DNA of 64,000 nucleotides from Streptomyces sp. NBC_00190. Its GTDB lineage: Bacteria; Actinomycetota; Actinomycetes; Streptomycetales; Streptomycetaceae. Where the stretch lies: contig NZ_CP108131.1 of NCBI RefSeq assembly GCF_036203305.1, positions 2,666,001-2,730,000 of the forward strand, in the 5' to 3' direction. Under the pieces are notes generated by a model. The model made no database searches and was not told the origin of the DNA. It saw nothing but the letters and a program-made list of their open reading frames with translations. A program made the position numbers and the translations under genes. Below, one piece after another: positions 18,303-23,438 of the stretch (the first letter of the stretch is position 1; every line of letters starts with the position of its first letter).

Positions 18303-18959
18303 CTAGCGAGGCAGCTCCGCCCCGGACAATTTCATGATCAATCCAGCTTGGAGCCGGCCCCTGAGTTCCGGGTCCGTGACCTCGTCCAGCAGCCCTATGG
18401 CCTGCTGGGTCGTCTCGGCGGCCCGCCGGTCGTCGCGCAGCGAGGCGGTCTGGTCGGCCATGTGCCTGAGCGCGATGTCGGCCCGCCGGTGGAAGAGCTG
18501 CCCGACCAGGGTCGTGACCAGGCCGACCGAGCTGGTCACGACCCCGAGGTACAGCTCCCCGCCGCCTTCGGCCTTCCAGACGGCCAGCGCCACCCCGCAG
18601 AGGAGGATCGCCGCTCCGACCCCGGCGAACCGCTGGCTGGTCGCGAAGCTGCTCCGCGCCTGGGTCAGCCCGTAGGCGTAGTACTCCACGAGGATGGGTG
18701 TGAAGTCGTCGCGGCGGTCGCCGAGTTGTGCCGGTGGGTGCGGCCGGATGCCGCCGACGTCGTCGAACTTCGGGTGTCCCGGCCCGCCGACGGCTTCACC
18801 ACCGGGCTCGGCCACCGGTTCGGCGACGTGCGCGAGCAACCGTGCCCGCTCCTCGTCCCGCTTGCGCTCGAAGCCCGCCCCGACCGCCCGCTCCAGCATC
18901 ACCACCAGGACCGCGGCCACCGCCACGGCCACCCCACCCCACGCGAGCCACTCGCCCAT
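18303..18959 (-). CDS. TRADD-N-associated two-TM domain protein
   Basis: A 218-residue protein starting at ATG 18959. An N-terminal TM (about 6-24) is followed by a charged linker. The C-terminal 125 residues begin VEYYAYGLTQARSSFATSQ, continue with two adjacent TM helices, and end with a helical tail (MADQTASLRDDRRAAETTQ, then LIMKLSG). This order matches the TRADD-N-associated membrane domain (CyanoTRADDas_TM), which appears in bacterial multi-component conflict systems as a membrane effector or anchor. No NTPase or protease lies in its own operon. The family call is from memory of the pattern. Confidence 0.6.
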   Translation of the reverse strand: MGEWLAWGGVAVAVAAVLVVMLERAVGAGFERKRDEERARLLAHVAEPVAEPGGEAVGGPGHPKFDDVGGIRPHPPAQLGDRRDDFTPILVEYYAYGLTQARSSFATSQRFAGVGAAILLCGVALAVWKAEGGGELYLGVVTSSVGLVTTLVGQLFHRRADIALRHMADQTASLRDDRRAAETTQQAIGLLDEVTDPELRGRLQAGLIMKLSGAELPR

Positions 18960-18997
18960 CCCCCGACGATCCCACGGCCCGATCGTCCGGCCAAGAC

Positions 18998-19441
18998 CTA
19001 GTAGCCCCAGCGCGGTTGGCTGCCGTCCTGGCGGCAGTAGATCAGGCGGCCGTTGCCCGCGTGCGTGGACCGGCCGAGGTCGGCCTTGCGGCAGAACTGG
19101 CCCGCGTTGTAGCAGTTCCCCGCGTTGGAGACGATCTCGCACGCGGGGTCCGCGGGCTCGGCCGGCGGACTCGTCGGAGCCTTGGTCGTGCGCTTGGGCG
19201 CCGGGGCGGTGCTGGGTGCCTTCTGGTCGGGGGTGTCCGACGGGCTCGGGACCGCGGTCGGAGAAGGTGACGGAGCGAGGGACGGAGACGGCGGCGGAGT
19301 CGGGCTCGGGGAGGCGTTAGTCGGCACCGCCGAGACCGAGGGGAGGGTCGGCGGCGCGGACACCGCCGGCCCCTCACCCCCGGCGGGCCCGCAGGCGACG
19401 GCAGCACCGGCCACCAACAGCGCGACCACCGCCCGCCGCAC
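18998..19441 (-). CDS. Lipoprotein with Ser/Pro linker and Cys-rich C-terminal module
   Basis: A 147-residue protein from GTG 19441. The lipobox is AGAAVAC with Cys17. A long Pro/Ser/Thr spacer (about 20-100) leads to a compact 48-residue module with four Cys (DPACEIVSNAGNCYNAGQF, then RLIYCRQDGSQPRWGY), probably a small disulfide-bonded binding domain. It is the first gene of a probable three-gene operon with the TRADD-N-associated and DUF2277 genes. Function unknown. Confidence 0.75.
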   Translation of the reverse strand: MRRAVVALLVAGAAVACGPAGGEGPAVSAPPTLPSVSAVPTNASPSPTPPPSPSLAPSPSPTAVPSPSDTPDQKAPSTAPAPKRTTKAPTSPPAEPADPACEIVSNAGNCYNAGQFCRKADLGRSTHAGNGRLIYCRQDGSQPRWGY

Positions 19442-19576: not shown

Positions 19577-19630
19577 CCTTTTGACTGGTGGGCACGGACG
19601 GTTTCGAACCGCCGAAAACTGCTTTGTAAG
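19572..19630 (-). repeat. Left attachment repeat (tRNA-Val 3' half)
   Basis: This direct repeat of 23350-23408 has three mismatches. It begins at the anticodon-loop edge (CTTACAAAGC on the minus strand), keeps the T-arm GGTTCGAAACC and ends in the terminator stem. Two of the mismatches fall in the variable/anticodon-stem area. Without a 5' half it cannot be a functional tRNA. Confidence 0.8.
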
Positions 19631-20018
19631 TTCGACCAACTGGCTGGCCTACCTGCCTGGCCAATGGCAAGACGTAACCCAAGCAGCGAGAGGCCTTCAA
19701 GTCCCTTCATGTTCCCTGACGTTGCCGTCAAAAACTGCCGTCACTGCAATGGTCCACCAAAAGGTCAACGGGCTCGTCTGGGTCCTGCCGTCGCTCGGTC
19801 CTACTGAGCAAGACACGACTCCGGAGGCTTTTTGGAATCCGGACAGCGCAGCAGGTCACGGCCCTGCACGTGGCGGATCAGGTGGGACGAGAAGGCGGAT
19901 AGTCCACGGCCAGCTGAACACCGCATAGCCGTTCGATCGGGAATCATAACCGCACCTGGAGCTCACCGACCACATTGTCCCTCGAGTGAAAACACCTCGA
20001 ATCCGCAAACTTACGATC
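19631..20018. other. Left non-coding end of the element
   Basis: About 390 bases of moderate G+C with no credible gene on either strand. It contains the left arm-like repeat at 19722-19743. The remainder may be the remnant of lost element genes. Confidence 0.45.
19722..19743 (+). repeat. Arm-type-like repeat, left copy
   Basis: TTGCCGTCAAAAACTGCCGTCA holds two TGCCGTCA half-sites 13 bases apart. A 20/22 identical copy occurs at 23305-23326, just after the integrase. Paired repeats of this sort near attachment sites fit integrase arm-binding sites. Confidence 0.5.
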
Positions 20019-20804
20019 TTACCCCCGCGGCAAGAACCACACCAACACCATCACGCCGATGATGGCAGCCAGAGAAAACAAAGAGAGGAAAACTGCTACC
20101 CGGAGCTGCGCTGCGGCTGTAACAGCATACCCTTGATATTGGTCGTACCAATCCTCAAGATTCTCTGTGCCGACTCTGACTGCTCGCGGCCAGCCATATG
20201 CGGCCTTGTAGCCAGAGATGACCGCAAGAACCGCTAGCGTTACGCCAGCCACGAGTGCTAGTGCCACACCCCACTTCGAAGCAGCATTCATCCCTGTCAA
20301 CGCATCCTTTGCCGTGGCAATACCGGTCAGGGAAAACAGTGCATAGATAGCAGAAACAGCCCCCAGCCATTTCTCTGCGGAATATTGAACACGCTTGTCC
20401 TGAGCGGCCAGAGCTTCATTTAGCGCCGCTGCTGCGGGCAATAGCCGAAGGTTCTTCTCTGTGCTCAATGCATAGGTTCCACCTTCCTGCTTAGTAAGCC
20501 TTCCAAGCCAGTATCGCCCACAGCCTCCCCGCACCCCCTCAGGCTGCTTGTGATCGCGCCGACAATTGCAGATGATCTGCGCGGTCCATTCCCGTGGCGT
20601 TGCTTGATCTTTCGCCGACGCACCCAGCCCACCCACCACTACGGTGTCTCTCACCTCGACTTCGCAATCATGGCCGCACGTCGGGCACAGCCCGGTTAGA
20701 ATGGGCAGTTTCCTATAACGGTCATGCACCTCCCAATGCGAGATCTGGTCGTCGCTCACCGTAATGAACTCATGGGCATAAACGAGTGCAGATGCGTCTG
20801 TCAT
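20019..20804 (-). CDS. Zinc-ribbon, three-TM membrane protein (cargo of element)
   Basis: A 261-residue protein; the ATG at 20804 has AAGGGGCTCTC upstream. The N-terminal half is cytoplasmic with six Cys in a ribbon-like layout: C40-x2-C43-x3-C47 and C79-x-C81...C95. The second half has TM helices at about 145-166, 177-198 and 231-257, with a charged loop between TM2 and TM3. No enzyme motif is seen. It is divergent from the subtilase, with only 24 bases between starts, so both must be controlled together. A membrane effector, anchor or protease target is plausible but unproven. Codon use is far less G+C-biased than the chromosome. Confidence 0.75.
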   Translation of the reverse strand: MTDASALVYAHEFITVSDDQISHWEVHDRYRKLPILTGLCPTCGHDCEVEVRDTVVVGGLGASAKDQATPREWTAQIICNCRRDHKQPEGVRGGCGRYWLGRLTKQEGGTYALSTEKNLRLLPAAAALNEALAAQDKRVQYSAEKWLGAVSAIYALFSLTGIATAKDALTGMNAASKWGVALALVAGVTLAVLAVISGYKAAYGWPRAVRVGTENLEDWYDQYQGYAVTAAAQLRVAVFLSLFSLAAIIGVMVLVWFLPRG

Positions 20805-20828
20805 GAGAGCCCCTTAAAATGGGAGTGG

Positions 20829-22127
20829 ATGCACCTGCCGACTCTAATACCGGTCGGCCATTTCGGTGACGAGCGCCGCGCCCTTGATGTGTACGTTCAC
20901 TCCAACGCCTTGGAGGTCGGAGTGTCACAAGATCAGACAAGGCCAATTTTCCCAAGTGTCGAGTGGTTTTCCAGGATGCTAAATGCGCCAGGAGCGCAAC
21001 CCCCTAAGGGCGCATTGGCCGAAAGCATGGATGTACCGGCGGCTGATTTTTCGACGTTGATCGGGCCTGAAGCTGATCTACTAGGGGTCTTGCGCGGCTG
21101 GCCTCAGTTGCGCGATAGAGCTGAGCTCCCGCCTTGGATCACAGCACCGCATCTCTTGCCCAGGCTGGACACTAATAGGCGACCGGAGTGGGCCCTGCGT
21201 GTGGCCGAGCTGCGTCATTCACCTGATGAAGGCCCGAGGATTGTTCGTGACGTGTCTCGCGCGCTCCAGTTGTATCAAAATGATGCCGCCTACATCGAGG
21301 CGGGCTACTTCTTCTCTCCTGTATCCGCCTCAGGAGAGACTCTGCATCCCAGGAAATGGTCAATCAATTGGGCTCCGGAGATTCATGAGAGACTGAATGA
21401 TTCGATTCAGATCTCACTGAGCAATGAAGTGCTGGGGTTGGATGCCATCGACTCCTGGCCCGCAGAACCGTGCATTGCGCTGCTCGATACAGGCGACCAG
21501 GATGCATCATTTCAGGTTAACTTGACGGGTGTCGCTGGGGGTCCGGAGTCGCCTCACGATCCAGACGGGCACGGAACGTCTATTGGAAGCCTTCTCCGAG
21601 CCGTAGCTCCGAATACCCATATGAACAGCTTTCGAGCGCTCAAGCCTGGCGATAAATACATCGAATCCCCTACGCTCATTAACGGCCTCAACGAGGCAAT
21701 GTGGCAGATAGGGCGATATCAAGTCATAGTCGTCGCACAGCGGGCCATGCTAGGAGTGAGGGACCAAAGCGGTCACGCTGGGTTCCTTCGGATCGCGCAG
21801 ACCAATTACAAGAGGGGCGTTACGATGCCCCTCGTTGTTTGCGCAGCAGGGAACGAAGGGCCAGATTATATGGCATACCCAGCAACAGTTCCTGGCTTCA
21901 TCGTTGCCTGTGGACTTGACTGGTACGGCCGGGTGGCAACATACAATTGTCGCACCCCAGAGGGTCTCACACTTCACGTGGTTGGCGCTCTGGGGGGTAC
22001 TAGCGAGAAGCCGCTGGGTACGTCAGCACCCGCAGCCATGCCGCATATCAAGAAAGACCTGTATGGAAGTTCATTTGCAACGGCTCTTATTGGTGCATCG
22101 CTCGCCTTGAACCGTCGGAGGCCATGA
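20829..22127 (+). CDS. Subtilisin-like (S8) serine protease without signal peptide
   Basis: A 432-residue protein; the ATG at 20829 is three bases after GGGAG. An in-frame ATG at 20772 would overlap the divergent gene. Residues 1-200 are not typical prodomain. The S8 catalytic set is complete: D220 (ALLDTGDQ), H248 (DPDGHGTSIGS), oxyanion N342 (CAAGNEG) and S415 (YGSSFATAL). No signal peptide or TM segment is present, so it acts in the cytoplasm, unlike nutritional subtilases. Cytoplasmic subtilases occur in bacterial conflict systems. Its divergent partner is a membrane zinc-ribbon protein, and a micro-ORF is coupled to its stop. G+C is low, as in the rest of the element. Confidence 0.85.
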   Translation: MHLPTLIPVGHFGDERRALDVYVHSNALEVGVSQDQTRPIFPSVEWFSRMLNAPGAQPPKGALAESMDVPAADFSTLIGPEADLLGVLRGWPQLRDRAELPPWITAPHLLPRLDTNRRPEWALRVAELRHSPDEGPRIVRDVSRALQLYQNDAAYIEAGYFFSPVSASGETLHPRKWSINWAPEIHERLNDSIQISLSNEVLGLDAIDSWPAEPCIALLDTGDQDASFQVNLTGVAGGPESPHDPDGHGTSIGSLLRAVAPNTHMNSFRALKPGDKYIESPTLINGLNEAMWQIGRYQVIVVAQRAMLGVRDQSGHAGFLRIAQTNYKRGVTMPLVVCAAGNEGPDYMAYPATVPGFIVACGLDWYGRVATYNCRTPEGLTLHVVGALGGTSEKPLGTSAPAAMPHIKKDLYGSSFATALIGASLALNRRRP

Positions 22128-22252
22128 TTAATTCCGGGATTTTGCCGAGTTGGGGGTGCCAACTTGGGGCCAGACGCTTGGCACTCCTAGCCGAATTGAC
22201 ATCCAGACCTTGGGGAGCAGACTTGTCACAGATCCTTCGTGACGGGCTGTGA
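22124..22252 (+). CDS. 42-residue ORF translationally coupled to the subtilase
   Basis: The ATG at 22124 overlaps the subtilase TGA as ATGA, the standard arrangement for coupled translation. The product starts MINSGILPSWGCQLG and continues with an amphipathic helix-like ARRLALLAELTSR and a Trp/Asp-rich tail ending SQILRDGL. No signal or TM segment. It may be a third component (inhibitor, adaptor or toxin-like peptide), or the remnant of a longer gene cut by the deletion that also damaged the integrase. Confidence 0.45.
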   Translation: MINSGILPSWGCQLGARRLALLAELTSRPWGADLSQILRDGL

Positions 22253-22548
22253 GGCAGCGCATCTCTGGTGCGCCTCAAAAGCTATTCCCCCAAAGCCGTG
22301 AGGCGCCCAGTGAAACTAGTCATCAGGCTGTAGAGCACCAGTTGCCCCTTCTCTGCTGTGACACGGGAAGGAAATCCGATGACCCCCGTCTTTGTGTACT
22401 CCTTCATTCCTACGGGTGAGCAGGAAGGGCCGGTGGCGGCCACTGACTGCACGTCAAGCATCACCACATCGGCTCCCGCGTCGGCGAGGCGAGCGGCACC
22501 CCGGCCATCCCGAAGTCGGAGCGCCCCCCGGCGGCGACGACCCGCGGG
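22253..22548. other. Junction between cargo and truncated integrase
   Basis: The left part (to about 22450) has element-like lower G+C; the right part (22450-22548) is very G+C-rich. Overlapping open frames occur on both strands, including a minus-strand frame ending near 22282, but none has a credible start and full domain. This looks like a deletion scar where the integrase N-terminus and perhaps xis were lost. Confidence 0.4.
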
Positions 22549-23304
22549 GCGTCGGCCGCCACCGCGAAGGAGTCGCACCGCGTACTGCGCAGTGCCATCT
22601 CCGCAGCATGCCGGGAGGAACTCATCAGCAGGAACGTCGTCCAGCTCGTGCCGGCGCCCCGAGTGCAGCCGCGGGAACTCCAGCCGTGGAACCTCGATCA
22701 GACGGTGATCTTCCTTGAGGCCTCCCGGCAGGACCCTCTGTACGCCGCGTTCGTGGTGGCTGTGACGCTCGGGCTGCGGCGCGGGGAGATTCTGGGGCTG
22801 CGCTGGCAGGACATCGACCTGGAGCGCCGGACGTTGACCGTGCGGAACCAGATCCAGCGGGTGCAGAAGGAGCTGTACGCGGACTCGACCAAGAACCGCC
22901 GGACCCGGGTCATTCCGATCCCGCTGATGTGCGTGGCCCCGCTCCGGTGGCAGCGTCTGCGCCAGGCCGCTCAGCGGGAAGCCGCCGGAACGGCCTGGCA
23001 GCAGAACGACTACGTGTTCACGACGCGTACCGGCCGTCCGGTGGAGCCGCGGAACATCAGCCGGTCGTTCGAGCGGATCGCGGACGGGGCGGGACTCCCC
23101 CGGGTGCGGCTGCACGATGCCCGACACGGGTGCGCCACCCTGCTCTTCGCCGCTGGGGTGCCGGCGAGGGTGGTCATGGAGATCCTCGGCCACTCGCAGA
23201 TCGCCGTCACGATGAACATCTACACGCACGTGTCCGAGGAGACGCGGAGGGAGGCCATCGGGCACATGGACCGGATGCTGCGGCGGCGGGGTCCGCGAGG
23301 CTGA
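22549..23304 (+). pseudogene. Tyrosine recombinase (integrase), N-terminally truncated
   Basis: Homology starts abruptly near 22549 inside the core-binding domain (SHRVLRSAISAACREELISRN) and continues to a full catalytic domain. Arg is in GLRRGEILGLRW, Lys region NRRTRVIPIP, HxxR in LHDARHGCATLLF, second His in LGHSQIAVT, and the nucleophile Tyr in MNIYTHVSEETRREAI. Typical Streptomyces element integrases are about 380-400 residues; here some 130-150 N-terminal residues are missing and no ATG/GTG exists upstream in frame after the stop at 22444. A 218-residue product from GTG 22648 is possible but would lack arm binding. Confidence 0.8.
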
Positions 23305-23356: not shown

Positions 23357-23408
23357 TTTTGACTGGTGGGCGCGGACGGTTTCGAACCGCCGACATCTGC
23401 TTTGTAAG
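23350..23408 (-). repeat. Right attachment repeat (inside tRNA-Val)
   Basis: The intact copy of the 59-bp attachment repeat. It stops at the anticodon loop of the tRNA, a known crossover site of tyrosine integrases that use tRNA genes. Confidence 0.8.
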
Positions 23409-23438
23409 AGCAGCGCTCTACCCCTGAGCTACGCACCC
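23364..23438 (-). tRNA. tRNA-Val(UAC)
   Basis: A 75-nt tRNA with encoded CCA. Acceptor stem GGGTGCG pairs with CGCGCCC (one G-T pair). The D-arm contains GTAGCTCAGGGGTAGAGC. The anticodon stem CTGCT/AGCAG encloses the loop CTTACAA, giving anticodon TAC. The T-arm is CGGCGGTTCGAAACCGTCC. The 3' half doubles as the attachment site of the element. Confidence 0.95.

Follow-up and report, generated by a model that had tools for sequence, protein, structure and literature searches.

Zinc-ribbon membrane proteins paired with several protease classes in Actinobacteria suggest a protease-controlled membrane switch

Why should a protease gene and a membrane-protein gene stand back to back in a small, low-G+C element of an actinobacterial genome? 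The question is raised by a 64,000-nucleotide stretch of Streptomyces sp. NBC_00190 (hereafter the window; contig NZ_CP108131.1, positions 2,666,001 to 2,730,000), which belongs to an 8.9 Mb genome assembled in 2 contigs. A preliminary description, made from the sequence of the window, had proposed that the two genes form a new conflict module in which the protease, activated by infection or stress, cuts or releases its membrane partner. Our analysis of both genes and their relatives suggests an undescribed protease-controlled membrane switch that probably functions in defence or cell death.

The two genes share a stretch of approximately 3.8 kb, bounded by a pair of end repeats, with an integrase fragment that comprises the catalytic part (Table 1). 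G+C content is 0.55-0.59 over positions 19600-22299 and 0.65-0.78 in the flanks shown, which agrees with the low-G+C cargo noted earlier. At 218 aa, the frame of the integrase is short and covers the catalytic part, so that the element resembles a remnant. The earlier assignment to a tRNA-borne element is borne out in the window by the 45-nt tRNA-Val end repeats, but tRNA linkage is not general, as a tRNA gene is present in 3 of the 45 relatives’ stretches. Likewise, the 42-codon ORF that overlaps the protease stop does exist, but its description as a coupled micro-ORF found no support: its product has no family match in Pfam, PADLOC or NCBIfam, and no overlapping gene of this kind is listed for the two plasmids that carry the module (L107 and L108), whose gene tables are incomplete. 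Just beyond the left end repeat, a gene on the minus strand (18303-19142) encodes a CyanoTRADDas two-helix domain (64.4 bits, cut-off 24.3). Homology between this gene and the membrane protein P0002 was rejected (hhalign probability 0.1, E 0.4). No ATPase was found among the seven window proteins scanned with Pfam.

Table 1. Features of the element and its two divergent genes (positions within the window).
Feature	Position	Strand	Basis or remark
Left end repeat, duplicating the 3' end of tRNA-Val	19586..19630	.	42/45 identical
P0002, zinc-ribbon three-helix membrane protein, 261 aa	20019..20804	-	ORF, database matches, AF2, hydropathy
P0002 three predicted membrane helices, residues 146-261, conserved WFLPR at end	20022..20369	-	Alignment, hydropathy, AF2
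P0002 zinc ribbon, ~residues 36-100 (CPxC ... CxCxxxH ... GCG)	20505..20699	-	Conserved Cys/His, weak Zn_ribbon_Brz match
P0002 variable ribbon loop, ~residues 55-72; candidate cut site	20589..20642	-	pLDDT, entropy, gaps
Gap between divergent first starts of P0002 and P0001	20805..20828	.	ORF coordinates
P0001, S8 protease without signal peptide, 432 aa; alternative start 21027	20829..22127	+	Pfam Peptidase_S8, D220/H248/N342/S415
P0001 predicted subtilisin-like prodomain, ~residues 70-175	21036..21353	+	
P0001 S8 catalytic domain, ~residues 180-432	21366..22124	+	Pfam, structure model
42-codon ORF, unsupported as gene	22124..22252	+	No family match
Tyrosine integrase, catalytic part only	22648..23304	+	Phage_integrase 105 bits; frame opens at 22447
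tRNA-Val; its 3' 45 nt (23364-23408) = right end repeat	23364..23438	-	

The protease, P0001, belongs to subtilisin family S8 (Pfam Peptidase_S8, 26.2 bits against a cut-off of 21.8). Aligned members of its family all have D220, H248 and N342, and S415 is missing from one row alone, that of P0003, which is P0001 itself in a frame-shifted version. This database copy changes frame near a six-G run (window 21992-21997) and loses the S415 region. A hydropathy window revealed no hydrophobic N-terminal stretch in three family members (P0001, P0004 and P0009). The S8 assignment, the complete catalytic set and the missing signal peptide of the preliminary description are thus confirmed, and an exported nutritional subtilase, which it had named as a refuting outcome, is not favoured. 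Identity as a type VII secretion mycosin was rejected (27.3 bits against an NCBIfam cut-off of 278.75), and a PADLOC scan at E 1 returned nothing for this protein. In our reading P0001 is a cytosolic S8 protease that is probably synthesised in an inactive form. Residues 1-66 have a pLDDT below 50 at nearly every position and align poorly with relatives, and an in-frame ATG lies at 21027. The distance to P0002, given earlier as 24 bases, therefore holds for the first starts and could instead be 222 bases.

A database search with P0002 returned 51 matches, self counted. P0002 has three hydrophobic stretches by hydropathy and cysteines at positions 40, 43, 47, 79, 81 and 95. Across an alignment of 45 sequences, C79, C81, H85 and C95 are invariant and C40 and C43 near-invariant, while C47 is neither. 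The six-cysteine ribbon layout and three transmembrane helices described earlier are consequently upheld, with C47 unconserved. The Pfam model Zn_ribbon_Brz matches P0002 weakly, under its cut-off. The AF2 model has a mean pLDDT of 87.8, and the lowest values within the ribbon fall in a loop. Within the ribbon, entropy and gap share of the family alignment also peak at this loop, at residues 61-70. The loop varies in length and sequence across loci and protease classes, and we consider it a candidate site of protease cleavage.

The earlier statement that no named system matches this gene set holds for the membrane protein in the curated libraries searched. P0002 reaches no Pfam or NCBIfam cut-off and has no PADLOC match. 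Ribbon/membrane proteins of its relatives are likewise never over cut-off (10 scanned in Pfam, 9 in NCBIfam) and have no PADLOC match (8 scanned). Solved structures yielded no convincing match to the family. Gasdermins are marked by a beta-rich pore-forming domain rather than by helical membrane spans. A gasdermin identity for P0002 was rejected, as no gasdermin family matched at E 1 in Pfam or PADLOC and three hydrophobic helices are predicted.

Are the two genes a unit? Adjacency of their homologues had been proposed as a test of the module, and we identified divergent protease and membrane homologues in five other fetched loci. These derive from Segeticoccus (L011), Catenulispora (L013), Nonomuraea (L010, where the protease is decayed and only its N-terminal part is recognised) and two near-identical Streptomyces plasmids (L107 and L108), on which the neighbour of the P0002 homologue is annotated as an S8/S53 peptidase. 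Six of nine further protease homologues in the database, a set that excludes the frame-shifted self copy P0003, have a longest contig identical in size to that of a P0002 homologue; Streptomyces sp. NPDC056660 is named on both sides among these six. The remaining three come from contigs of 1343-4329 bases. Distances among the S8 proteases correlate with distances among the membrane proteins (r 0.88, 11 pairs). Leaving out the duplicate plasmid lowers r to 0.80; it drops to 0.61 in a set of 8 pairs and to 0.40 (p 0.09) among the 7 closest, which weakens this line of evidence. The recurring divergent arrangement supports P0001 and P0002 as a conserved two-gene module. An LmuA-like nuclease gene lies near the S8 pair on one of the plasmids (L107:3320-4675).

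We then identified 46 distinct loci with P0002 relatives alone as the query, the protease being no criterion. They comprise the window, 11 loci from public genomes, 27 from the 392 genomes searched within the genus, 5 from a sample of the class and 2 plasmids; one further record (G095) was dropped as a duplicate of the Streptomyces aureus locus L016. A protease or protease-like gene is present in 42 of the 46 loci, or in 36 when only well-supported cases are counted, which leaves out the decayed L010, L015 (on which Pfam is silent) and four M48-like loci below cut-off. The partner is an S8 protease of the P0001 kind in six loci (window, L010, L011, L013, L107, L108), the IetAS subtilase in one (L102, with PADLOC matches for IetA and IetS), an EAD1-trypsin in four (L012, L016, L017, L018), a C14 caspase in four (L014, L015, L060, L069), an HExxH M48-like protein in four (L050, L051, L052, L100) and a CHAT caspase in 23 (18 from the earlier sets and all five in the class sample; five are Pfam-checked). 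No protease partner was found in L009, L019, L068 or L104; the neighbour in L068 clusters with TPR-CHAT proteins, and no CHAT domain was seen in it. By gene content, the membrane protein is retained from locus to locus and the protease class is swapped. The idea of a protease paired with a membrane partner is strengthened by this recurrence across several unrelated protease classes.

In 38 of the 41 fetched loci that have a match, the nearest protease domain is encoded by a reading frame no more than 500 bases away (exceptions L051, L069 and L102); L057 and L069 additionally carry a second, generic S8 match. None of 40 random 12.2 kb stretches (5606 frames) from 15 of these genomes matches the same models at E 1e-5 (best E 0.0028), some case stretches being longer than the controls, up to 20.8 kb. 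CHAT domains number 48 across 19 genus genomes (own included), compared with a CHAT partner in 18 of the 27 Streptomyces stretches analysed. The CHAT, EAD1, trypsin, C14 and M48-like models drew their seeds partly from the same loci, and independent support therefore consists of Pfam, PADLOC, annotation and the low CHAT background. Pfam independently backs five CHAT loci, all four EAD1-trypsin loci and three of the four C14 loci; Pfam is silent on the fourth, L015, whose assignment derives from 29% identity to L014. The M48-like partners score below cut-off. Catalytic residues are kept in every class inspected: His and Cys in 23 of 23 CHAT proteins, H/D/S in 4 of 4 trypsins, His and Cys in both C14 pairs, HExxH in 4 of 4 M48-like proteins and D/H/N/S in 4 of 4 fetched S8 relatives.

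How might such a pair act? From the pairing and the anatomy of the two proteins we infer that a triggered protease may cut or release the membrane protein, which would then harm the membrane, in the manner of a gasdermin pair without being one. We give this reading a probability of roughly 0.45. The trigger would sit on the protease side, because the protease genes of relatives carry or adjoin TPR, EAD1, HD-CE-type or AAA+ (IetA) domains; in the window it may act via the P0001 prodomain. Once triggered, the protease would cut the zinc-ribbon part, most likely in the variable loop. Ribbon and membrane part are encoded either by a single gene or by two coupled genes, with the start of the membrane gene overlapping the stop of the ribbon gene by 4 bases in 15 of the 19 split Streptomyces loci printed. 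Cutting a linker between the two parts thus cannot be a general switch. The cut would free or open the membrane part, which may depolarise or permeabilise the membrane, and the infected or stressed cell would be arrested or killed. No phage or viral relative was found in phage and viral records, so there is no direct link to infection. Tentatively, P0002-type proteins may constitute a previously unnamed actinobacterial family of protease-gated membrane executioners that combine with protease genes of five or six types, as an alpha-helical counterpart of gasdermins.

The roles could also be reversed. The constant membrane protein may detect damage via its outer tail or membrane part, and its ribbon may recruit and activate the paired protease, which would then be the executioner. 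Beyond the third helix, 37 of the 43 membrane proteins measured, from every partner class, have a C-terminal tail, 43-68 residues long, that contains exactly two cysteines. This tail is equally compatible with a sensor and an effector. Together with the proposal that the single-helix protein EACC1 is a membrane sensor for a caspase (available text of PMC7159879), it makes the sensor or anchor model the main and serious rival, and the conserved ribbon is also consistent with it. However, the tail is absent in the window protein, L009 and L010, which end right after the WFLPR-like motif. It has one cysteine or none in L011, L019, L155 and L159, and is cysteine-free in L011, L019 and L159. The TPR, EAD1, HD-CE-type and AAA+ domains or partners, moreover, sit on the protease side and not on the membrane side. 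We regard a sensor role as less likely than the effector reading.

A membrane protein that keeps the protease inactive at the membrane, much as an antitoxin would, is improbable. The protease would in that case be a toxin or addiction factor that retains the element, as a divergent pair within a mobile-element remnant and two relatives on Streptomyces plasmids might suggest; but tRNA genes are scarce in the relatives’ stretches, and it is hard to envisage how one constant inhibitor would serve several unrelated protease folds. We also consider it improbable that the pair is a housekeeping quality-control or developmental protease with a membrane adaptor, a role that fits the lack of matches in phage records but not the patchy distribution (at least 28 of 392 genus genomes and at least 8 of 394 class genomes, own included, with 6 candidates scored per genome), the low-G+C element or the fact that some loci have IetAS, EAD1/AAA/VWA or LmuA-like genes nearby.

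The reading of P0002 as a protease-released effector draws on analogy with fungal HET-Q1/HET-Q2, bacterial gasdermins and gated nucleases, and can be set against known systems. IetAS is a tested antiphage system that has an S8 protease in common with the window pair, and the split genes of L102 are divergent from IetA-IetS; unlike in IetAS, the protease of the window matches nothing in PADLOC at E 1, and no ATPase turned up next to it. The fungal gasdermin HET-Q1 and the subtilase HET-Q2, with CHAT variants, similarly form a two-gene pair of a membrane-acting protein and an S8 or CHAT protease (available text of PMC10989679). According to the same text, a protease gene is located close to approximately 80% of the fungal gasdermin genes; approximately 60% of these proteases are S8 and 17% CHAT. 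In contrast to HET-Q1, P0002 has a zinc ribbon, is predicted to span the membrane three times with alpha-helices and has no gasdermin match; bacterial gasdermins and their proteases differ in the same respect, P0002 having none in Pfam or PADLOC. The gasdermin logic of a partner gene that adjoins proteases of different classes is nonetheless found here, in 42 of 46 loci.

Hachiman, AVAST and canu nuclease-protease pairs also combine a constant effector with swapped proteases, and pro-nucleases are paired with trypsin or caspase; in those systems disordered loops form the gate (available text of PMC12799240). Here the partner is a membrane protein and not a nuclease, and a gate loop is suspected. 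EACC1-caspase system 4 and the EAD systems likewise join an actinobacterial membrane protein to a caspase, or EAD1 to trypsin (Kaur et al. 2020, PMC7159879, available text). They differ from the window pair, which has three helices and a divergent S8 partner, in that EACC1 has one helix and is encoded by the 5' gene with the caspase as the 3' gene, and the available text of PMC7159879 describes no zinc-ribbon three-pass partner. Protease-gated logic is already known, whereas the membrane family and the breadth of its partners were not found in the family libraries or literature searched. Proteolytic activation is known for few bacterial effectors. If the effector reading is true, gasdermins would be joined by another, structurally unrelated route to protease-gated membrane attack, and further defence loci could be sought wherever the ribbon and helix motifs adjoin a protease of any class.

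Some neighbourhoods contain additional components. The HExxH protein near the split genes in L050, L051, L052 and L100 is conserved, approximately 385 aa long and weakly M48-like. Near the EAD1-trypsin and membrane genes of L016, one protein (L016:11586-13355) contains both EAD1 and a ThsA-type macro domain. In L102, split ribbon and membrane genes are divergent from IetA and IetS (L102:5273-9880), an arrangement seen at this one locus that may represent an expanded IetAS. In L060 and L069, the split genes are immediately preceded by genes for giant proteins (L060:6767-12385 and L069:6781-12120) that combine a caspase, an iHD-CE and an HSP90-associated winged-helix domain.
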